Positions 3 through 20,646 of a stretch of DNA of 21,324 nucleotides are shown here, piece after piece. A model generated the notes under the pieces. That model made no database searches and was not told where the DNA came from. It worked only from the letters and a program-made list of their open reading frames with translations. Source of the DNA: a virus; IMG/VR virus record IMGVR_UViG_3300031963_001062, positions 1-21,324 of that record. One strand, 5' to 3'. A program made the position numbers and the translations under genes. The stretch's first letter is position 1; the number at the start of each line of letters is the position of its first letter.

Positions 3-842
3 ATGTCAGCAGGTCAAACTTACCATCAATGGCAAACAGACGCATTAGCAGCAGCAGCTACTAACGCAACAGTTGAAGGTGATGACGCTTCATTCGCAAC
101 ATTAGCAGCAACAACAGTATTAGGCAACTATACTCAAATCTCACGCAAAACAGTTCAAATTTCAAACACATATGACGTAGTACGTAAGTATGGTCGTAAG
201 TCTGAAGTTGCTTACCAACTTATGAAAGCTGGTAAAGAAATGAAACGTGACATGGAGTATGCTTTAGTACGTAACCAAGCATCATCAGCAGGTGGACCAG
301 CAACAGCTCGAACATCAGCAGGTATTGAGTCTTGGATTACTAACCGAGTAATTGCTACAGGTTCTACAGCAGGTACAACACCTGGCTTCGTAAACGGTAC
401 AGTAGCAGCTCCTACAGACGGTACTTCAGTAACATTCATTGAAGCAGACTTAAAGTCAGCTTTACAATTAGCTTGGACAGACGGTGGCGAGCCATCAACA
501 ATTCTTATGTCAGCTACTAACAAGTCACGTTTCTCTGGCTTTGCTGGTATTGCTACTAAGTTTGTAGACGTACAAGTTAAAGCACAGGCTTCAATTACTG
601 GTGCAGCAGACGTTTACGTTTCTGACTTCGGTAACCATACTGTGAAACTTGACCGTTTCATGCGTGACCAAGCAGTTCTATGTATTGACCCAGGCTATGT
701 TGGTTTAGCTTCACTACGTCCTTTAAGCAAAGAAGAACTTGCTAAGACTGGTGACTCAACAAAATGGCTCTTAACTGCAGAATATGCACTTGTGGTTCAA
801 AACCCAGATGCACATGCTAAAGTTCAAAACGTAGGTGCTTAG
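3..842 (+). CDS. Major capsid protein, DUF5309/SU10 type (5' end outside window)
   Basis: Forms the icosahedral phage head shell (HK97-like fold expected for this family). The visible 279 residues begin with a YHQWQTDALAAAATNATVEG-type segment, which in this family normally lies some 40 residues into the protein; the reading frame is also open to the window edge, so the ATG at position 3 is probably an internal Met and the true start is upstream. The IESWITNR and VSDFGNHTVKLDRFMR segments and the C-terminal 'YALVVQNPDAHAKVQNVGA' end are typical of DUF5309 capsid proteins. All 11 visible arginine codons are CGN and none AGA/AGG, unlike most neighbours, which fits a very highly translated gene. 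A terminator hairpin follows 20 bases after the stop. Identification is by recognition of the family; it is the most secure call in the window. Confidence 0.9.
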   Translation: MSAGQTYHQWQTDALAAAATNATVEGDDASFATLAATTVLGNYTQISRKTVQISNTYDVVRKYGRKSEVAYQLMKAGKEMKRDMEYALVRNQASSAGGPATARTSAGIESWITNRVIATGSTAGTTPGFVNGTVAAPTDGTSVTFIEADLKSALQLAWTDGGEPSTILMSATNKSRFSGFAGIATKFVDVQVKAQASITGAADVYVSDFGNHTVKLDRFMRDQAVLCIDPGYVGLASLRPLSKEELAKTGDSTKWLLTAEYALVVQNPDAHAKVQNVGA

Positions 843-897: not shown

Positions 898-1221
898 ATG
901 CCAATATTATTTGACCACAATAGCGTAACAGGTGTAAGTCAGTATTTTGACTATGACCCAGCTAAAGATACATACTACCTAACTAGCACACAAGATATTA
1001 GTGGCATGTTAGACAATATTAAAAAAGCAAGAGATAATCCTGAAGTTTGGAATAACGGTGTAAAACAAGAATGGGCGCACTTTGCTAGTATTCCACCTGT
1101 AGTGGAAATGCAGTTAAAGCAAAAGGGTATAGATATGTATAACCCACACCAAACAAAAGAACTTATAAAAGAAATAAACGAAAACTATCCATATCTCAAG
1201 TTGACTACAAAGCGTGGATAA
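898..1221 (+). CDS. Small conserved phage protein encoded behind the capsid gene
   Basis: 107 residues, with no catalytic motif, signal peptide or membrane segment. It opens with a FDHNSVTGVSQYFDYD stretch and closes with a helical-looking KELIKEINENYPYLKLTTKRG-like tail; proteins of this size and pattern are often found just after DUF5309 capsid genes in phages of aquatic bacteria. Position suggests a head-completion or head-associated role, but the function is not established and this is inference. There is no Shine-Dalgarno sequence before the ATG; the T-rich tail of the capsid terminator lies there instead. I keep the ATG at 898 because the family-like sequence begins immediately after it. 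The gene overlaps the next by 8 bases, suggesting translational coupling. Confidence 0.8.
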   Translation: MPILFDHNSVTGVSQYFDYDPAKDTYYLTSTQDISGMLDNIKKARDNPEVWNNGVKQEWAHFASIPPVVEMQLKQKGIDMYNPHQTKELIKEINENYPYLKLTTKRG

Positions 1222-2542
1222 AGACGAATTAAAACAAGTACAGTTAGCAATACACGACCTCATACAAAAGGAACAGTATGATGTTGCAATGCCTATTATT
1301 AACGAAGTGTTAATGATATATCCTAATGATGCAGCTACATTAAACTTCTTAGGTTACATTTGGTTAATGGGTGATAAGCCTGCATTTGCTTACCAATACT
1401 TCCGTAGAGCATTACAAGAACAACCAGGCAATAAAGCATTATGGACTTCTCTAGGTCGTGCATGTCACGAAATGGATATGTTTGAAGATGCTATTAAATA
1501 CTTTTTAAAGTCAGCAGAATTAGACCCTAGTTATGCAATGGCATACTCTAATGCTAGTGCTTCATTAGTTCAAATGTCTAAATGGGATGATGCAGAAAAG
1601 TCAGCTAAGATGGCTTTGGAATGCGACCCTACAGAATTACACTCACAGCTAAACCTAGCTCATAGTTACCTTGCTAAAGGTGAATGGGAAAAAGGTTGGA
1701 TAGAATGGGATAAGTCACTAGGTGGCAAGTTCCGTAAAGAATTAGTCTATGGTGACGAAGTAAGATGGAATGGCGATAAAGACAAGACTATAGTTATTTA
1801 TGGTGAACAAGGTTTAGGTGATGAGATATTCTACGCATCATGTATACCAGACGCTATTGCTATTAGTAAGAAAGTTTATATAGACTGTGATGAAAGATTA
1901 GAAACATTATTTAAACGTAGTTTCCCTACAGCAATAGTGCATGGCACTCGCAAACAAGATAATGTTGAATGGTTAAAAGATATTACATTTGATGCAAGAT
2001 GTGGTATTGGTGGACTTCCTCAGTTCTTTAGACCAACAAGCAAGTCTTTTCCTGGTACGCCTTTTCTAAAAGCAGACCCTGATAAAGTTACTATGTGGCA
2101 GTCCATGTTTAAGACATGGGGTAAGAAAGTTATAGGTATCACAACTAAAGGCGGTACGTTTAGAACTAACGCTAAAGGTCGTGAGCTTACAGAAGAAGAC
2201 TTACAACTATTACTTAAGCGTAAAGACATACAGTTAGTTAGTTTAGACTATAGCGTAGAACGCAAAATTGATGGTATTAAATACTTTGAATTAGCGACAG
2301 ACGCAAAAGATTATGATGACACAGCAGCTCTTATAGCAGCTTGTGATATGACTCTAGGGGTCAACACTACTGCTTTACATTGTAGTGCTGCTATGGGCGT
2401 TAAAACATGGTGCTTAGTACCTAAATGGCATCAATGGCGTTATGCTCAAGTAAGTATGCCTTGGTATAGACACATGAGACTCATTTACCAAGATGATAGA
2501 ACATGGAAAGAAGTCATTGAGCAGCTTAATGGAACTTTGTAA
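1214..2542 (+). CDS. TPR-repeat protein fused to a GT9-like glycosyltransferase domain
   Basis: Two-part protein of 442 residues. Residues about 1-175 are tetratricopeptide repeats: successive 34-residue units with patterns such as YFRRALQEQPGNKALW, YFLKSAELDPSYAMAY and AKMALECDPTELHSQL. Residues about 185-440 look like a GT-B glycosyltransferase related to the heptosyltransferase (GT9) superfamily, with GEQGLGDE at 197-204 (nucleotide-sugar side) and CDMTLGVNTTALHCSAAMG at 377-395. TPR-linked glycosyltransferases of this type are known in bacteria and phages; the TPR part usually binds a protein partner, so a protein acceptor is a reasonable inference. The acceptor and sugar are unknown. Start is a GTG overlapping the previous stop by 8 bases; no clear Shine-Dalgarno. 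It is the first of four overlapping sugar-related genes. Confidence 0.82.
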   Translation: MDKDELKQVQLAIHDLIQKEQYDVAMPIINEVLMIYPNDAATLNFLGYIWLMGDKPAFAYQYFRRALQEQPGNKALWTSLGRACHEMDMFEDAIKYFLKSAELDPSYAMAYSNASASLVQMSKWDDAEKSAKMALECDPTELHSQLNLAHSYLAKGEWEKGWIEWDKSLGGKFRKELVYGDEVRWNGDKDKTIVIYGEQGLGDEIFYASCIPDAIAISKKVYIDCDERLETLFKRSFPTAIVHGTRKQDNVEWLKDITFDARCGIGGLPQFFRPTSKSFPGTPFLKADPDKVTMWQSMFKTWGKKVIGITTKGGTFRTNAKGRELTEEDLQLLLKRKDIQLVSLDYSVERKIDGIKYFELATDAKDYDDTAALIAACDMTLGVNTTALHCSAAMGVKTWCLVPKWHQWRYAQVSMPWYRHMRLIYQDDRTWKEVIEQLNGTL

Positions 2543-3026
2543 ACTTATTTCTAAAGACTATTTAAAGCAACAACAAGCATTACACAATGATAAAAATTAT
2601 GGTGTTTCTGGTCATAAATGGGCTAGTAAAATATCACATCATAAAGATATATTAGATTATGGATGCGGTAAGAAAACATTAGAAGCAGCACTTAATAGAC
2701 CTATTGCTAATTACGACCCATGTGTAGAAGGATTAGAAAATAACAATCAGCCACATGACTTTGTATTCTGTGGTGATGTATTAGAACATATAGAATTGCA
2801 TTTGCTAGACAATGTATTACAAGATATAAAGCGTTGCATGATAAATTCAGGTTTATTAGTTATAAGTTTAATACCTGCTAAAAAAACTTTGCCAGATGGT
2901 CGTAACGCACATCTTATTTTAGAGACACATCATTGGTGGAAAGATAAACTAGAAAATTACTTCATCATTACTAACGAAGAAGTAAACGATAAAGAATATG
3001 TAGTGGAAGTAAAGCCATGGGTTTAG
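2529..3026 (+). CDS. Class I SAM-dependent methyltransferase
   Basis: 165 residues. The Rossmann-fold motif I is visible as ILDYGCGKKTL (about 41-51), a second acidic position as NYDPCVEG (61-68), and the post-motif GDVLEHIE (82-89), followed by a strand LLVISLIPAKK (109-119) and a conserved-looking PDGRNAHLILETHHWW segment (122-137). These are hallmarks of class I methyltransferases that use S-adenosylmethionine; a similar small enzyme recurs in phages near glycosyltransferases. The substrate is not deducible; a sugar acceptor would fit its neighbours. The frame is open from 2493, but the ATG at 2529 gives a 14-base overlap with the upstream gene and a start where the recognisable sequence begins, so I prefer it. 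It overlaps the next gene by 10 bases. Confidence 0.82.
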   Translation: MELCKLISKDYLKQQQALHNDKNYGVSGHKWASKISHHKDILDYGCGKKTLEAALNRPIANYDPCVEGLENNNQPHDFVFCGDVLEHIELHLLDNVLQDIKRCMINSGLLVISLIPAKKTLPDGRNAHLILETHHWWKDKLENYFIITNEEVNDKEYVVEVKPWV

Positions 3027-3763
3027 GTGATTGGATAATGGCATCTGGTGATGCTAAAGAAGCTAACGAAAGAACTGGTAAAAAAGTTAAGTTAGGTAAT
3101 GGCGTTACAATGTTTTGGGATGGTCAAGTATTTGCCAATAATCCTAGAATGGCTAGTAAATCTGATACAGACGTAGTGTGGGTTAAAAACTATCAAAATC
3201 ACAGACCTTATATAAAAGGCACAAATAATGGTCACATGTTATTTAATGATGACTATAAGCCTGTTGTTGGTGAAATATACTTTGACAATGAAGAACAAAA
3301 AGCTATAGATAAGATACAAGGTGACTACATTATTGTTGAACCTAGTGTTAAAAAAACTTTTATTCATACAGTCAATAAAGCATGGCATGGTTGGGAAGAG
3401 TTATTTAAACATGACTTACCATGGTTACAGTTAGGTGATTTTACTACTGACAAGAAAACAAAGTGGTTAGAAACACCAACCTTTAGAAACGCATTACAAG
3501 TATTAAGCAAAGCAAAGTTATTTGTAGGCACAGATGGTGGTTTACATCATGCAGCAGCAGCATTAGGCATACCTTCCGTAGTGATATGGACAGGTTTTAC
3601 TTCACCAAGGCACTTAGGATATGATACCCATAGAAATATACATGACGGTTCAGAGCCATGTGGGACTTATAATAGCGTATGCAAACATTGCCTTTTAAAA
3701 AGCAAAGCAATCACCGTAGAGCAGGTTTTAGATGCAGTTAATACTGAGTGGCATAGAACGTAG
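3017..3763 (+). CDS. GT9-family (heptosyltransferase-like) glycosyltransferase
   Basis: 248 residues. GLGDWIMASG at the very N terminus is the glycine-rich motif that opens GT9 enzymes; VGTDGGLHHAAAALGIPSVV (170-189) is the donor-binding HH/DGG region, followed by WTGFTSPRHLGY. A C-terminal cysteine group (C215, C222, C225 in CGTYNSVCKHC) is also seen in some GT9 relatives. GT9 enzymes transfer heptose or related sugars to LPS core; this one is shorter than typical cellular members (usually over 300 residues), with a trimmed N-terminal half. All 7 arginine codons are AGA/AGG, the reverse of the capsid gene. Lies inside the four-gene cassette, overlapping its neighbours by 10 and 32 bases. Donor and acceptor are unknown. 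Confidence 0.82.
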   Translation: MGLGDWIMASGDAKEANERTGKKVKLGNGVTMFWDGQVFANNPRMASKSDTDVVWVKNYQNHRPYIKGTNNGHMLFNDDYKPVVGEIYFDNEEQKAIDKIQGDYIIVEPSVKKTFIHTVNKAWHGWEELFKHDLPWLQLGDFTTDKKTKWLETPTFRNALQVLSKAKLFVGTDGGLHHAAAALGIPSVVIWTGFTSPRHLGYDTHRNIHDGSEPCGTYNSVCKHCLLKSKAITVEQVLDAVNTEWHRT

Positions 3764-4445
3764 AGATAACGTCTTAAAACGCTTGCATAAGCATTGTAAG
3801 GGTGTTTTAACAAGGGAATGGGATGGTAAGTCAATTCCAGTTGTAGTAGGTAATTTACAGGGTGCAGATAAGATACAAATAACCTGTAGAGAACAAAACA
3901 TACCCTACATTCTAATAGACCATGGTTACTTTCACAGGTCACCTGACTTAGAATGGGCTAGATTATGTGTTAATAACTACCATTGCACAGATTGGCGTGT
4001 ATCAGATAGAGAAACACCTAAGGTTCATGAGTATCGTAGTGGTGAAAACGTAGTTATTTTGCCTCCAGCAGATAAAATAGCTTATATCTACCAAACTTCT
4101 AACTGGTTAGACAAAACAGTAGAAGAAATTAGAAAACATACAGAGAGAAAAATTGTCATTAAGCGTAAAGGCGAAGGTGACTTTAAAAGAACACTAGAAA
4201 AGGCTCATGTTATTGTGAGTTTTGGTAGTGTGGCAGAAGTGGAAGCACTTATTTGTGGCGTTCCTGTTATAGGTTCACCATATAGCCCTGCAGTACCAAT
4301 ATCCAATAACATACAAGACATAGAAAACTTAACATATTTTGACAGAACAGCATGGTTAAGCTCATTAGCTGCTAGTGAATGGCATAAAGATGAGATGGAC
4401 AAGTGCTGGGATAGACTAAAAGGACAATTAGATGGCGTTTACTAA
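3732..4445 (+). CDS. GT-B glycosyltransferase-like protein
   Basis: 237 residues, not securely recognised. The fold-like signs are a Rossmann-type alternation of strands and helices in the first half (SIPVVVGNL, IPYILIDHGYF) and a C-terminal segment SFGSVAEVEALICGVPVIG (163-181) that strongly resembles the donor-binding region of GT-B glycosyltransferases, where a helix with E/A residues precedes a 'GVPVIG' strand. ERKIVIKRKGEGDFKRTLEK (138-157) could be the domain linker. No signal peptide or membrane segment. Its 32-base overlap with the GT9 gene and 14-base overlap with the adaptor gene tie it to the sugar cassette and to the structural operon. It could alternatively be a polysaccharide-related protein without transferase activity. 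Start ATG follows an AGG at moderate distance. Confidence 0.6.
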   Translation: MQLILSGIERRDNVLKRLHKHCKGVLTREWDGKSIPVVVGNLQGADKIQITCREQNIPYILIDHGYFHRSPDLEWARLCVNNYHCTDWRVSDRETPKVHEYRSGENVVILPPADKIAYIYQTSNWLDKTVEEIRKHTERKIVIKRKGEGDFKRTLEKAHVIVSFGSVAEVEALICGVPVIGSPYSPAVPISNNIQDIENLTYFDRTAWLSSLAASEWHKDEMDKCWDRLKGQLDGVY

Positions 4446-5046
4446 TTACAGTAGCTTTGTAACAGTAGTAGAAAATTACTTAGCAAGAACAGACTTATCG
4501 TCACAGATACCTGACTTCATTCAGTTAGCACAAACAAGAATGTCACGTGACTTAAGAACTGAAAAAATGCTTAAGGTAGCAACAGCTCCTATTACTTCAG
4601 GTGATGGCACAGTATCTTTACCTTCTGACATGCTAGAGGTAAGAGAAATACATTTACAAGGTAACCCACCTATTAGGCTAGAGTTTCAAGCACCTGATTT
4701 GTTTTTCCGTAATGGTCAAACATCATTATCAGGTAAACCATTTTACTTTACAATGTTAGGTTCAGAGTTTCAATTTGCGCCAACACCTAATGGCAGCTTT
4801 ACAGCACAAATTTTATATTATGCTCAACCTACATTTATATCTACATCAACTGCTAGTAATTTATATCTAGCTAACTACCCAGACGCTTTATTATATTCAA
4901 CTCTAGCAGAAGCAGAGCCATATTTATTGAATGATGCACGTATTCAAACATGGTCAGCTTTATATGATAGAGCAATTGCTAATATTAAAACAAGCGACTT
5001 GGGTCAAACATACCCATACACTTCACTAAGCGTAACACCAAGATAA
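4432..5046 (+). CDS. Head-tail adaptor protein (SU10-adaptor type)
   Basis: 204 residues. The helical N terminus with FVTVVENYLARTDLSSQIPDFIQLAQ (about residues 9-34), then RMSRDLR and a beta-rich middle containing SLPSDMLEVREIHLQG and LEFQAPD, then SALYDRAIANIK near the end, is the typical pattern of phage adaptor proteins that form a 12-fold ring under the portal and connect it with the tail nozzle. In related phages this gene follows the capsid gene closely; here the sugar cassette separates them. Starts with ATG 14 bases before the end of the upstream gene. Function by family recognition; the adaptor role itself is well established for relatives of this type. Confidence 0.75.
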   Translation: MAFTNYSSFVTVVENYLARTDLSSQIPDFIQLAQTRMSRDLRTEKMLKVATAPITSGDGTVSLPSDMLEVREIHLQGNPPIRLEFQAPDLFFRNGQTSLSGKPFYFTMLGSEFQFAPTPNGSFTAQILYYAQPTFISTSTASNLYLANYPDALLYSTLAEAEPYLLNDARIQTWSALYDRAIANIKTSDLGQTYPYTSLSVTPR

Positions 5047-5457: not shown

Positions 5458-6432
5458 ATGCCAGTACCAATGACGCTAGAGCAACTAGACGTTTATGGTA
5501 GTTTGGAAAATGTACCATATAGTTTAGATAATACATTTTATGACAATGGCACTACTGTATGTGGACCTTGGACATTAGACCAATTGGACGCATTTGGTAG
5601 TTTAGATAACTTAGCCATTTCGCTAGATAGTTCATTATGGACTACTAATGCTTGTATAAATATATCAGATGCACTTATTGATGCAGCCGCATTAGTTGTT
5701 GCAGATGCTACTAGAATAAGAACAAGTAGTGGTGCAATAGATGCCAATGCTGCTGTCGTTGCAGATGGTACTAAAATTTCTACAGGTAGTGCAGTTATTA
5801 CAGCTAACGCACAAGTAGAAGCAGAAGCTACTAGAATTACATTTAGTGGTGCTGACATTACAGGTGAAGCTACTGTTGTTGCTAATGGCGTTAAAGTTGT
5901 AGTAGGTGCTGCAGATATAACAGCTTTAGCTACTGTAGACGCTACAGGCTTTGCAATATACTCATCTAGTGGTTCTATTACAGCCACAGCTACAGTATTA
6001 GCAGATGGTATTAGAGTTCAACTTGGCGAAGGTTCTATTACAGCTAGTGCAGCAGTTGATGCAGATGCAATACGCATTAGAACAAGTGATGCAGATATAA
6101 CAGGAACTGCAGAAGTTACTGCTGTAGGTGGTGTATTGTATGCTGGTGAAGCTAATATAACAGCAGAAGCATTATTATCATGTAGTCCAAATGCAATATT
6201 ATTTGGAGTAGGTAGTATTTCAGCAGTCGCAAGTATTTTAGCAACAGGTACGATATTAGGTGAAGAATGGTCACCAGTCACTCCAGGCTCAGAGTCATGG
6301 ACAGATGTAACACCAAGTAGTGATACTTGGACAGTAATAACAGCAGGTGGTAGTTCATGGACTGATATAAGTTTTGGTTCAGATACATGGACAGCATCAA
6401 GTTCAAGTAACGATACATGGTCACAAATTTAA
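5458..6432 (+). CDS. Tandem-repeat structural protein with 20-residue and 10-residue repeats
   Basis: 324 residues made almost wholly of repeats. Residues 6-28 and 39-61 are two copies of a 23-residue motif (TLxxLDxYGSLxNxxxSLD). Residues 72-268 are ten consecutive units of exactly 20 residues with core ITAxAxVxADG (the last is shortened to 17). Residues 271-324 hold six Trp spaced exactly 10 residues apart (271, 281, 291, 301, 311, 321) in WTDVTPSSDT-like units. The regular small-residue pattern suggests a beta-solenoid or stacked beta-hairpins, hence an elongated fibre-like virion part; this is inference. Only four cysteines or fewer are present and no enzymatic motif. It lies between a small structural protein and a tail fibre gene. 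I do not recognise a named family. Confidence 0.75.
   Translation: MPVPMTLEQLDVYGSLENVPYSLDNTFYDNGTTVCGPWTLDQLDAFGSLDNLAISLDSSLWTTNACINISDALIDAAALVVADATRIRTSSGAIDANAAVVADGTKISTGSAVITANAQVEAEATRITFSGADITGEATVVANGVKVVVGAADITALATVDATGFAIYSSSGSITATATVLADGIRVQLGEGSITASAAVDADAIRIRTSDADITGTAEVTAVGGVLYAGEANITAEALLSCSPNAILFGVGSISAVASILATGTILGEEWSPVTPGSESWTDVTPSSDTWTVITAGGSSWTDISFGSDTWTASSSSNDTWSQI
5671..6261 (+). repeat. Ten in-frame 60-bp units coding a 20-residue repeat
   Basis: Units start at codons for residues 72, 92, 112, 132, 152, 172, 192, 212, 232 and 252. Spacing is constant at 60 bases without insertions, but the DNA copies differ at many positions, so the array is old and held by protein structure rather than by recent duplication. 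Confidence 0.85.
6268..6432 (+). repeat. Five 30-bp units coding a Trp-anchored 10-residue repeat
   Basis: TGG codons lie at 6268, 6298, 6328, 6358, 6388 and 6418, exactly 30 bases apart. Each unit has the form W-T-x-[VI]-[TS]-x-[GS]-[GS]-x-[ST]. The array ends three codons before the stop. Confidence 0.85.
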
Positions 6433-6446
6433 TTACGAGGTAAAAA

Positions 6447-7112
6447 ATGGCAAAAGATAAAATCAGTCAGTACGACTCTACAAGTGCTGGCGCAAACTTA
6501 AACACAGACATTGCAGGTATTAATATTGATGAGGGTTGCGCACCTTCAGGTATTAACAATGCTATTAGAACTCTCATGGCACAAATTCGTGACTTACAGT
6601 CAGGTGTTAGTGGTGACACTATTCCTGTTGCAGCAGGTGGTACTGGTGCTAATACAGCAGCTTCAGCTAGAAGTTCTTTAGGTCTTGTTATTGGTACAAA
6701 CGTATTAGCTCCTCCTTCAGGCACAGCTATTTTAAAAGCTAACTCTGGTGGTGCTTTAGCAAACGCTACAGCAGGTACAGACTATGCAGCAATAGGCACA
6801 GCATCTACATGGTCAGCATCACAACGTGGTACAGTTACTACAGACAATGATGGTTCATTTGATATGTCTGTTACTAATAACTTTTCATGCACACCTTCAG
6901 GAACATTTGCACTTACCTTTACTAATATTACAGCAGGTCAGTCAGGCTATGTATTATTAGTAAATACAGGTGGTCATGCAGTCACAGCAGCAGCAACTAC
7001 TAAAGTAGGTACAACATTCTTAACCACAGTAAGTGCAGCAGGGACATATTTACTATCTTATTTCTCTAATGGCACTAACGTATATGTAACAGCTTCAGGA
7101 GCTTTAGCTTAA
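6447..7112 (+). CDS. Tail fibre protein
   Basis: 221 residues. The N-terminal block KISQYDSTSAGANLNTDIAG followed by NIDEGCAPSGINNAIRTLMA (residues about 5-45) is a very common attachment-end signature of phage tail fibres, and PVAAGGTGANTAASARSSLG (about 60-79) is the collagen-like/AGGTGA repeat motif found in fibre shafts. The remaining part (about 125-221) is a Thr/Gly-rich beta domain containing SFDMSVTNNFSCTPSG and ending in a strand-rich tip; such tips commonly contact the receptor or a further fibre protein. The gene shares one base (TAATG) with the next one, the large receptor-binding candidate, so the two may be co-translated parts of one appendage. A GAGG Shine-Dalgarno is present upstream. 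Confidence 0.8.
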   Translation: MAKDKISQYDSTSAGANLNTDIAGINIDEGCAPSGINNAIRTLMAQIRDLQSGVSGDTIPVAAGGTGANTAASARSSLGLVIGTNVLAPPSGTAILKANSGGALANATAGTDYAAIGTASTWSASQRGTVTTDNDGSFDMSVTNNFSCTPSGTFALTFTNITAGQSGYVLLVNTGGHAVTAAATTKVGTTFLTTVSAAGTYLLSYFSNGTNVYVTASGALA

Positions 7113-9469
7113 TGGCTATTTTAAACAATAGTAATGCCATCTCTAGTGGTGGCTATGACATAAATAACTCACTTCGCTTTAGAGCTAGTGCATCTGCTTA
7201 TCTAAATAGAACGCCAGCTAGTGCTGGAAATAGAAGAACATGGACATGGAGTGCATGGGTTAAAACATCACTTGATTGTTCATTTATGTATGCAAAAAAT
7301 GGCAACTATGGAACAAAAATATATTTTAATGATAATAAATTTGGTATTTTTGATTGGCAAGCTAACGTTGCAATTTATTGGGAAGTAGCATCTAGTGCAG
7401 TATTTCGTGACCCTAGTGCTTGGTATCACCTTGTTGTTGCAGTTGATACTACTCAAGCTACAGCATCAAATAGAGTTAAACTTTATGTTAATGGTAACCA
7501 AATAACAGCATTAGCAACTTCAAATTATCCCACTCAAAATTATGATGGAATAATGAATACTGCAAATCCTACTTTTATTGGAAAACAGTCTACAACTGTT
7601 TATGGTGAACAATCGTTTTTTGACGGCTATATGACTGAAGTAAACTTTGTTGATGGTTCTCAACTAACACCATCATCATTTGGTGAAACAGATACAACTA
7701 CAGGTTCATGGAAACCTAAAGCCTACACAGGCACATATGGCACTAATGGTTTCTACCTTAAATTCTCTGACATAGCTACTACATCAGGTTCTAATGCAGG
7801 TCTAGGTAAAGACTTTAGTGGTAATGCTAACTACTGGACTACTAATAACATATCTGTAACTGCTGGCACAACCTATGATGCTATGATAGACAGTCCTACG
7901 CTAACAAGTGCGACTGTGGCTAATTATCCTGTTTTAAATCCATTGCAAAAAGCAAGTGATGTTACAATATCAAACGGAAATTTAACAGAGTCTCAAGGAG
8001 CTACATATAGAACGACACCAACAACAATGTTTGCATCATCTGGAAAATGGTATGCTGAAATGGTTACTGATGGAGAAGTTGGCGTTGTGCGTGAAGGTGC
8101 ATTTGATATAAACACTAGATTTGGTTTAGGTACAGGACAATCAGGTGCATACGCATATAATGCTTATGATGGAAAAAAAATGAACAATGGAACAGAAACT
8201 TCTTACGGAGCTGGTTTTAGTGCATCAGATGTAATGGGTATTGCATTAGATTTAGACAATGGGACTGTTACATTTTATAAAAACAATGTTAGTCAAGGAA
8301 CTGCATTTAGCTCACTTCCTGCTGGCAATTATTCTTTTGCAACAGGACATGCAAATACAAGCTCAAACGTAAACTTCGGACAACGACCATTCGCATACAC
8401 ACCTCCTACAGGCTTTGTAAGACTAAACACATATAACCTACCTGATAGCACTATTAAAAAAGGTAATACTGTGATGGATGCAAATATTTGGACAGGTAAT
8501 GGAACAGGAATAACTATTACAAATAGCGGTGCAATGAAACCTGATTTAATGTGGATTAAGAGTAGGTCAGTAAATGGTTATTATCATGTATTAACTGACT
8601 CTGTTCGTGGTATTACAAAAGCATTGTATTCAAATGCAACAGACTCTGAAAATACTTTATCAACACGAGTAACTGCTATTAATAGCAATGGCTTTTCTCT
8701 TGGAACGTCTGGTGATGTAAATGACAATGCACAAACTTTTGTAGGTTGGCAATGGCAAGCTGGTCAAGGTTCAACATCATCTAACACTTCAGGTTCTATT
8801 ACATCTACTGTATCTGTAAATACAACTGCTGGGTTTAGTGTGGTAACTTATACAGGAAACGGAACTGCTGGAGCAACTATTGGGCATGGATTAGGTGTTG
8901 CACCTAAATTTATTATTATCAAGAAAAGGTCATCAACTGCTGACTGGGATGTTTACCATGCTTCTCTTGGTGCTACTAAAGCATTATACTTAAATAGAAC
9001 TGATGGTCAACAAACTGGAACCACATTCTGGAATGATACTGCTCCATCATCTACATTAACTACATTTGGAACAAGTCCTGATATTAATTCTAATGGTGTA
9101 ACATATGTTATGTATTCATGGGCAGAAATAGCAGGGTTTAGTAAGTTTGGTTCTTATACAGGTAATGGTTCTACAGATGGTCCGTTTATATATACAGGAT
9201 TTAGACCTAAGTTTTTAATGTTTAAAACCACTACTATTATTGGACATTGGGTAATAGTTGATACTTCTCGTAACACATATAATGTTATAGACAACTCTCT
9301 CTATCCAGATACTTCTGGCTCTGAAATAAATACAATTACAGATGTTGATTTTCTATCTAATGGATTTAAGTGGAGAGGTGTATTAGCTAACGAAACCAAT
9401 GTTAGTGGACAAGTTTATATCTACATGGCATTTGCAGAAAACCCATTTAAGAATAGTAACGCTTTTTAA
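7112..9469 (+). CDS. Large tail protein with LamG-like and SPRY domains, likely receptor binding
   Basis: 785 residues. Residues about 20-215 form a concanavalin/LamG-like fold (TWSAWVKTS, WYHLVVAVDTTQ, VKLYVNGNQ, FFDGYMTEVNFVDG). Residues about 290-430 look like a SPRY domain (GKWYAEMVTDGE, FGLGTGQSGAY, DVMGIALDLDNGTVTFYKNN, NVNFGQRPF). The rest contains three units of about 100 residues, each opening with TGNG (461, 581, 683), then a P-x-[FL]-[IML] strand and W-x-V and S-N-G-[FV] elements, as in the DUF7483 domains of phage fibres. LamG and SPRY folds bind glycans or proteins, so host-surface binding is the natural inference. Starts with ATG overlapping the previous stop. The C-terminal AFAENPFKN motif is common in such proteins. 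Confidence 0.78.
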   Translation: MAILNNSNAISSGGYDINNSLRFRASASAYLNRTPASAGNRRTWTWSAWVKTSLDCSFMYAKNGNYGTKIYFNDNKFGIFDWQANVAIYWEVASSAVFRDPSAWYHLVVAVDTTQATASNRVKLYVNGNQITALATSNYPTQNYDGIMNTANPTFIGKQSTTVYGEQSFFDGYMTEVNFVDGSQLTPSSFGETDTTTGSWKPKAYTGTYGTNGFYLKFSDIATTSGSNAGLGKDFSGNANYWTTNNISVTAGTTYDAMIDSPTLTSATVANYPVLNPLQKASDVTISNGNLTESQGATYRTTPTTMFASSGKWYAEMVTDGEVGVVREGAFDINTRFGLGTGQSGAYAYNAYDGKKMNNGTETSYGAGFSASDVMGIALDLDNGTVTFYKNNVSQGTAFSSLPAGNYSFATGHANTSSNVNFGQRPFAYTPPTGFVRLNTYNLPDSTIKKGNTVMDANIWTGNGTGITITNSGAMKPDLMWIKSRSVNGYYHVLTDSVRGITKALYSNATDSENTLSTRVTAINSNGFSLGTSGDVNDNAQTFVGWQWQAGQGSTSSNTSGSITSTVSVNTTAGFSVVTYTGNGTAGATIGHGLGVAPKFIIIKKRSSTADWDVYHASLGATKALYLNRTDGQQTGTTFWNDTAPSSTLTTFGTSPDINSNGVTYVMYSWAEIAGFSKFGSYTGNGSTDGPFIYTGFRPKFLMFKTTTIIGHWVIVDTSRNTYNVIDNSLYPDTSGSEINTITDVDFLSNGFKWRGVLANETNVSGQVYIYMAFAENPFKNSNAF

Positions 9470-20145: not shown

Positions 20146-20646
20146 ATGTTTAGTATCATCTCAGGAATTTTAGGCTTTGCTACTTCAGGTTTACCATCAC
20201 TACTTGGCTTCTTTCAGCAAAAAGGTGACCAAAAGCATGAACGTGAAATGGCTCAGTTACAAAATCAACAAGCATTGCTTATGGCTGAAAAAGGTTTTGT
20301 ATCACAAGAAAAAATTGCTGCAATTGAATTAGAAGGAACGTACGCAGAAACGTACGCACAAGAACGTGAAGCATTATATGAACATGATGCTAAACTTGTT
20401 GCTGAAGCAGCACCATGGGTTAAAACTCTTAATGCTAGTGTAAGACCTATTGTAGCATTTACATTTGTAGGTTTACTTGTATTTGTAGACATAGCAGGTT
20501 TTATATGGGCTGTTAAATCTACTGGTGGATTTACTCCTGAAGCAATGGATACTATATTCTCTAGTGATGAGATGAGCATTGTAGCGTCAATTATTGGTTT
20601 CTACTTTGGCTCAAGAACTTGGGAAAAGAAACGTGAAAGCGTCTAA
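20146..20646 (+). CDS. Holin, three-transmembrane-segment type (GTA_holin_3TM-like)
   Basis: 166 residues. Hydrophobic segments lie at about 1-23 (SIISGILGFATSGLPSLLGF), 101-123 (PIVAFTFVGLLVFVDIAGFI) and 141-158 (EMSIVASIIGFYFGSRTW), separated by a charged helical stretch (about 26-90) rich in Glu, Gln and Lys. The closing IIGFYFGSRTWEKKR motif and the topology match the three-segment holins known from gene transfer agents and phages. Holins permeabilise the inner membrane to release endolysin. It begins directly after the preceding stop with a GGAAAAGGA Shine-Dalgarno, and the endolysin gene overlaps its end, which is a typical holin-endolysin pair. Confidence 0.78.
   Translation: MFSIISGILGFATSGLPSLLGFFQQKGDQKHEREMAQLQNQQALLMAEKGFVSQEKIAAIELEGTYAETYAQEREALYEHDAKLVAEAAPWVKTLNASVRPIVAFTFVGLLVFVDIAGFIWAVKSTGGFTPEAMDTIFSSDEMSIVASIIGFYFGSRTWEKKRESV

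Follow-up and report, generated by a model that had tools for sequence, protein, structure and literature searches.

A glycosyltransferase cassette with exchangeable finishing enzymes ahead of the adaptor gene of an uncultivated virus, and its possible role in virion-protein glycosylation

The window, i.e., the whole stretch of DNA analyzed here, is a 21,324-base record of an uncultivated virus. At its start lies the gene for an SU10-type major capsid protein (3-842, plus strand, as are all features in this paragraph; PF17236 4e-83, phrog_1328 3e-86), the 5' end of which may be cut off by the contig end. After an intrinsic-terminator-like hairpin (854-891), there follows a small conserved gene (898-1221; phrog_3982 1.9e-10), which directly adjoins the adaptor gene in cassette-free relatives. 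Next come genes for a TPR-glycosyltransferase (TPR-GT; 1214-2542), a SAM-dependent methyltransferase (2529-3026, with a longest ORF from 2493; Methyltransf_23 1e-6, phrog_24759 2e-19), a compact GT9, i.e., heptosyltransferase-like, glycosyltransferase (3017-3763) and a probable GT-B glycosyltransferase (3732-4445). An SU10-type head-tail adaptor gene (4432-5046; PF24175 5e-33) completes the region. A preliminary description of this DNA had placed four ORFs between the capsid-side small gene and the adaptor, at 1214-2542, 2493-3026, 3017-3763 and 3732-4445, and these were all confirmed. Its overlaps of 10-32 bases were roughly right, our measurements being 8 nt for the small gene and TPR-GT, 14 nt (start at 2529, which is backed by homologues) or 50 nt (longest ORF) for TPR-GT and the methyltransferase, 10 nt for the methyltransferase and GT9, 32 nt for GT9 and GT-B, and 14 nt for GT-B and the adaptor. 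Similar junctions were seen in relatives, in which the GT9/GT-B overlap was 32 or 38 nt in all 40 loci measured, and GT-B overlapped the adaptor by 14 nt in 31 of 42 loci. For pairs with measurable divergence, all four cassette genes displayed dN/dS values of 0.10-0.34, i.e., purifying selection. Judged from its sequence, the four-gene arrangement is real, and chance is ruled out.

The TPR-GT was found to begin with a TPR array, to which a GT-B domain is fused, as indicated by Pfam (TPR match 4.5e-14), the predicted structure (pLDDT 85.5; TPR helices at residues 3-167, approximately 1-170, and a GT-B domain at 186-442) and both Foldseek and VIA matches. The best overall structural matches in Foldseek were SPINDLY (6e-11) and OGT (about 1e-8), GT41 enzymes in which TPRs likewise precede a GT-B domain. 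These matches spanned both domains, although the whole-chain rmsd was high (12-17 A or more), sequence identity was 8-18%, and the phage glycosyltransferase domain is short and GT9-like. The catalytic domain aligned to the GT9 structure 3tov with a Z score of 16.2 and an rmsd of 3.2 over 244 residues. The fold, a conserved GD and C-terminal donor-site motifs are common to TPR-GT and the GT9 heptosyltransferases (3tov, WaaC, TibC), but TPR-GT has Asn384 at the position of the GT9-motif Asp, and comparison with the GT9 profile yielded no more than a short match of low probability. Across loci carrying any of the three downstream modules described below, both the GD motif (D203) and the GxNTTA region at the C-terminal end are kept, consistent with one fixed reaction followed by variable finishing steps. 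In a bacterial scan with alignment A1, one full-length TPR-GT homologue was detected, with no glycan genes visible among its neighbors, which counts against the glycosylation role proposed below; the best 80 matches in a scan with alignment A2 all belonged to the same clade. The bacterial protein FlmG of Caulobacter, which is required and sufficient for flagellin modification, also consists of an N-terminal TPR and a C-terminal GT-B domain (PMC7591256). FlmG resembles TPR-GT in domain layout; it differs in acting on flagellin and in its size of 596 residues, its TPR portion being longer. By analogy with such enzymes, we infer a protein-directed role for TPR-GT.

With a length of only 248 aa, the separate GT9 protein matched GT9 models over its C-terminal part alone, where it exceeded the curated PF01075 threshold (4e-7; 30 bits vs. 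a cut-off of 22); its residues G4, D5 and D173 are invariant. The fourth protein gave no Pfam match over cut-off, no match in a PDB sequence search, nothing of weight in comparison with the GT9 profile, and a weak TIGR00661 match (0.0067). On a poor model (pLDDT 52.9), no Foldseek match reached E <= 0.001, GT-B enzymes and Kdo transferases (KpsC, WbbB) topping the list, with the leading GT-B matches at E 0.002-0.007. These matches suggest that the fourth protein is probably a GT-B glycosyltransferase.

GT9 is classically an LPS enzyme family, which counts against a target on the virion. An alternative is that cytosolic GT9-type enzymes alter the LPS core during lytic infection, thereby blocking superinfection or the sticking of new virions to cell debris. 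In keeping with this, LPS heptosyltransferase models were the best matches of the GT9 protein (TIGR02193 2e-7), all cassette enzymes look soluble and could act on the inner core, and exchange of modules would also fit receptor or exclusion types. The TIGR02193 score, however, lay far under the equivalog cut-off (30.6 vs. 185.3 bits), and as all GT9 equivalog models fell below their cut-offs, we refrained from deducing a donor sugar or a target from the sequence. Moreover, TPR-GT has the layout of a protein glycosyltransferase, and the cassette sits directly ahead of the adaptor and is without a flippase or ligase gene. An integrase (PF00589) was absent from 13 relatives of 30-44 kb, records that may be incomplete, while all control genomes were positive; this argues against lysogenic LPS conversion of the gtr type. 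We regard alteration of the LPS as unlikely. Phage glycosyltransferases that act on DNA exist as well, and the cassette might accordingly glycosylate or hypermodify phage DNA bases, but a base-synthesis gene was not found in the 21,324-base window and the closest-matching models are those of protein- and LPS-type enzymes, making this explanation highly improbable.

Relatives were gathered by scans with the capsid, the adaptor, TPR-GT and the fourth protein, using the best 80 matches per scan; two of these four scans selected for cassette genes, and the frequencies given here pertain to close relatives rather than to phages at large. Within this set, 90 distinct loci spanned the region from capsid to adaptor, and TPR-GT was present in all 90. 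The block 3' of TPR-GT held enzymes other than those of the window in more than half of the relatives. Module A, i.e., GT9 plus GT-B, occurred in 42 of the 90 loci, and module B, a lone methyltransferase approximately 40% identical to that of the window, in a further 42; module C, comprising an FkbM methyltransferase and a GT-A-like protein with a DTD motif, was found in six. GT9 and GT-B co-occurred in 42/42 module-A loci, only nine of which also possessed the methyltransferase. The cassette lay invariably within the late structural block and ran into the adaptor, and glycosyltransferase genes are thus placed with virion structural genes. The preliminary description of a sugar-modification cassette inside a structural block is upheld by these data, whereas the idea of a fixed four-gene unit had to be rejected: TPR-GT is constant, GT9 and GT-B are obligate partners, the methyltransferase is an optional addition and the whole block is replaceable. 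That description had considered that independent occurrence of the genes in related phages, together with an unchanged virion or LPS glycan, would speak against it, and such independence was found for gene composition only. In some module-A loci (e.g., L141:6379-8714 and L133:6041-8714), TPR-GT and GT-B kept their frames but that of GT9 was shortened or broken. In another locus (L034:3505-4104), the methyltransferase and the adaptor were separated by an ORF of 199 aa, which matched NUMOD3 weakly and may encode a homing endonuclease.

Comparison of closely related loci revealed how these modules are exchanged. By blastn, the window and locus L005 were 94.5% identical up to position 2530 and 93% identical from 4427 onward, with complete replacement between these breakpoints. 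Similarly, loci L016 (module A) and L242 (module C) encode identical capsid proteins and share 99.4% DNA identity upstream, 90% across TPR-GT and 97.8% across the adaptor, with no match within the module. An unmatched module between flanks of such identity indicates clean exchange of the segment bounded by the stop of TPR-GT and the start of the adaptor, the latter being the downstream swap boundary. In quick trees with SH-aLRT support only, the minimum number of module changes was seven on the capsid tree, 10 on the TPR-GT tree and 13 on the adaptor tree. At the level of sequence, an exchangeable sugar-modification cassette is established.

Endonucleases and small ORFs were also found inserted at this junction, which may therefore simply tolerate insertions, a point against a role in virion modification. 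The inserts might then be opportunistic cargo with varied, unrelated roles and a common insertion site only, and the differing chemistries of the modules are in line with this. Nearly all of the larger inserts are nevertheless sugar- or methyl-transferases, and TPR-GT is found in every one of the distinct loci under purifying selection, so that we consider the cargo explanation rather improbable.

The same junction was examined in other lineages. In a sister lineage with a ctXG6705-like adaptor, the cassette genes were absent from 70 loci in which the upstream sequence extended over 500 nt or more. In most of these loci the small gene adjoins the adaptor at 0-9 nt, representing an empty site, as is also the case in Venkman and in Microcystis phage Mvi-Yong1342-1. 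About 15 of the 70, however, had an insert of 683-706 nt at the small-gene/adaptor junction, which, in those that were translated, encodes a single GT-A-like protein (L361-L391, e.g., L391:5318-5998). This protein measures 225-227 aa, contains a DSD motif and matches glycosyltransferase-2/Anp1 weakly. Relatives of this protein in phage records are partly annotated as glycosyltransferases, and one that was inspected occupies the same junction. In the ctDrO704 lineage, the adaptor is of the SU10 type while the capsid is of a different family (Phage_capsid_3), and ahead of the adaptor are a TPR-GT (29-32% identity), a methyltransferase (39-43%) and a GT8-like enzyme. The association is thus with the adaptor rather more than with the capsid, which hints weakly at a substrate other than the capsid. 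This association across lineages with different capsid families, together with the structural-block position, also speaks against the possibility that the cassette glycosylates a surface protein of the host (pilin or flagellin) serving as receptor, resulting in superinfection exclusion. TPR-GT could bind a host protein, and FlmG-type enzymes naturally modify flagellin (PMC7591256), yet on the evidence of gene position we hold this possibility to be distinctly improbable.

Related enzymes were also encountered outside this setting. In Caulobacter jumbo phages, homologues of the GT-B protein, the methyltransferase and GT9 are clustered with a GT8-like enzyme, the cluster being preceded by a large tail gene and followed by lysis genes (L163:5962-8862, L397:4443-7382). 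This cluster corresponds to the gp128-131 region of CcrColossus and CcrPW; it shows about 25-44% identity to the window proteins, but TPR-GT was not seen there. The available passages of the jumbo-phage genome paper (PMC3556154) contain no discussion of the gp128-131 enzymes, nor do those of papers on phiCbK-like phages and an OM43 phage discuss the cassette genes. Caulobacter jumbo phages with related enzymes can be grown on a laboratory strain and are a possible cultured test system, in which part of the idea set out below would be directly testable. In Pelagibacter phage Mosig, relatives of the GT-B protein lie outside a structural block, which counts against that idea.

The preliminary description had suggested co-expression of the cassette with the particle. 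The hairpin at 854-891 has a 16-pair stem and a T-rich tail, and in relatives a hairpin folded in every one of the short spacers between capsid and small gene (42 distinct ones), although its stem differed in sequence. Promoter-like sites were in no excess over shuffled sequences. A conserved terminator-like hairpin between the capsid gene and the cassette implies that the latter is not simply co-expressed with the capsid; more probably, the cassette and adaptor are expressed together via read-through and less strongly than the capsid. The suggested co-expression is therefore only partly correct.

As for the joint function of the cassette genes, we infer that they glycosylate a virion protein, by means of a constant and an exchangeable part of the cassette, a reading that we hold with a little more confidence than doubt. 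A protein-type TPR-GT and cleanly swapped finishing enzymes between shell and adaptor genes suggest that the phage probably decorates its own particle. This is supported by the likeness of the TPR plus GT-B layout to that of protein O-glycosyltransferases, by the apparent recurrence of unrelated putative glycosyltransferase genes at the same junction in other lineages, and by the clustering of related enzymes next to a tail gene in Caulobacter jumbo phages. In this scheme, the TPR domain would hold a newly made virion protein, to which the GT9-like domain of TPR-GT would add an initial sugar in the cytoplasm, with a nucleotide sugar made by the host as donor. The module would then extend or cap the glycan, using GT9 and GT-B with or without methylation, a methyltransferase only, or FkbM and GT-A enzymes, such that a module swap might give a particle a different glycan and leave the rest of it as it was, akin to a serotype switch. 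Epimerase-family sugar genes were not found in 12 of the 13 relatives that gave no integrase match, which makes it probable that sugar donors are made by the host; as far as these possibly incomplete records go, the phages, without an integrase match, are probably virulent and use host sugar donors.

Virion glycosylation is known mainly from actinobacteriophages. In Che8, Rita and their relatives, phage glycosyltransferases have been reported to decorate capsid and/or tail proteins (Freeman et al. 2023, as covered in passages of PMC11256854 and PMC11652166), and a methyltransferase accompanies the glycosyltransferase in some, according to passages of PMC13313380. The cassette resembles these systems in its phage-encoded glycosyltransferases, sometimes with a methyltransferase. 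Che8, Rita and their relatives are, however, phages of Actinobacteria, and the passages on them do not describe a constant TPR-GT with exchangeable modules. A tentative extension, to which we give somewhat less credence than to virion glycosylation as such, is that common aquatic podoviruses possess a glycan-serotype system for their particles. In it, a head-tail protein would be primed by the one conserved TPR-GT, and the finishing enzymes would be swapped by recombination at gene junctions, so that the virion glycan changes while capsid and tail proteins stay the same. If so, virions of common uncultivated water phages that are alike in their capsids may differ in surface chemistry, recognition and removal.

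The preliminary description had considered glycosylation of the capsid or a fibre, or a system that alters LPS and blocks superinfection. Virion glycosylation remains the favored function, with the adaptor, nozzle or a fibre preferred to the capsid as the protein held by TPR-GT, on weak grounds. Tail-fibre and downstream virion genes varied independently of the module, so the module could be tied to no one fibre gene and no partner protein is singled out. Likewise, Ser/Thr content singled out no substrate. Downstream of the adaptor, the window encodes a 324-aa protein with degenerate repeats (5458-6432), variable between relatives, in whose Ser/Thr-rich end these residues make up half of the 30 residues from residue 288. 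It also encodes what is probably a fibre protein (7112-9469), containing SPRY and DUF7483 domains, and, at 20146-20646, a protein with a weak match, under the family's cut-off, to a three-TM holin family.
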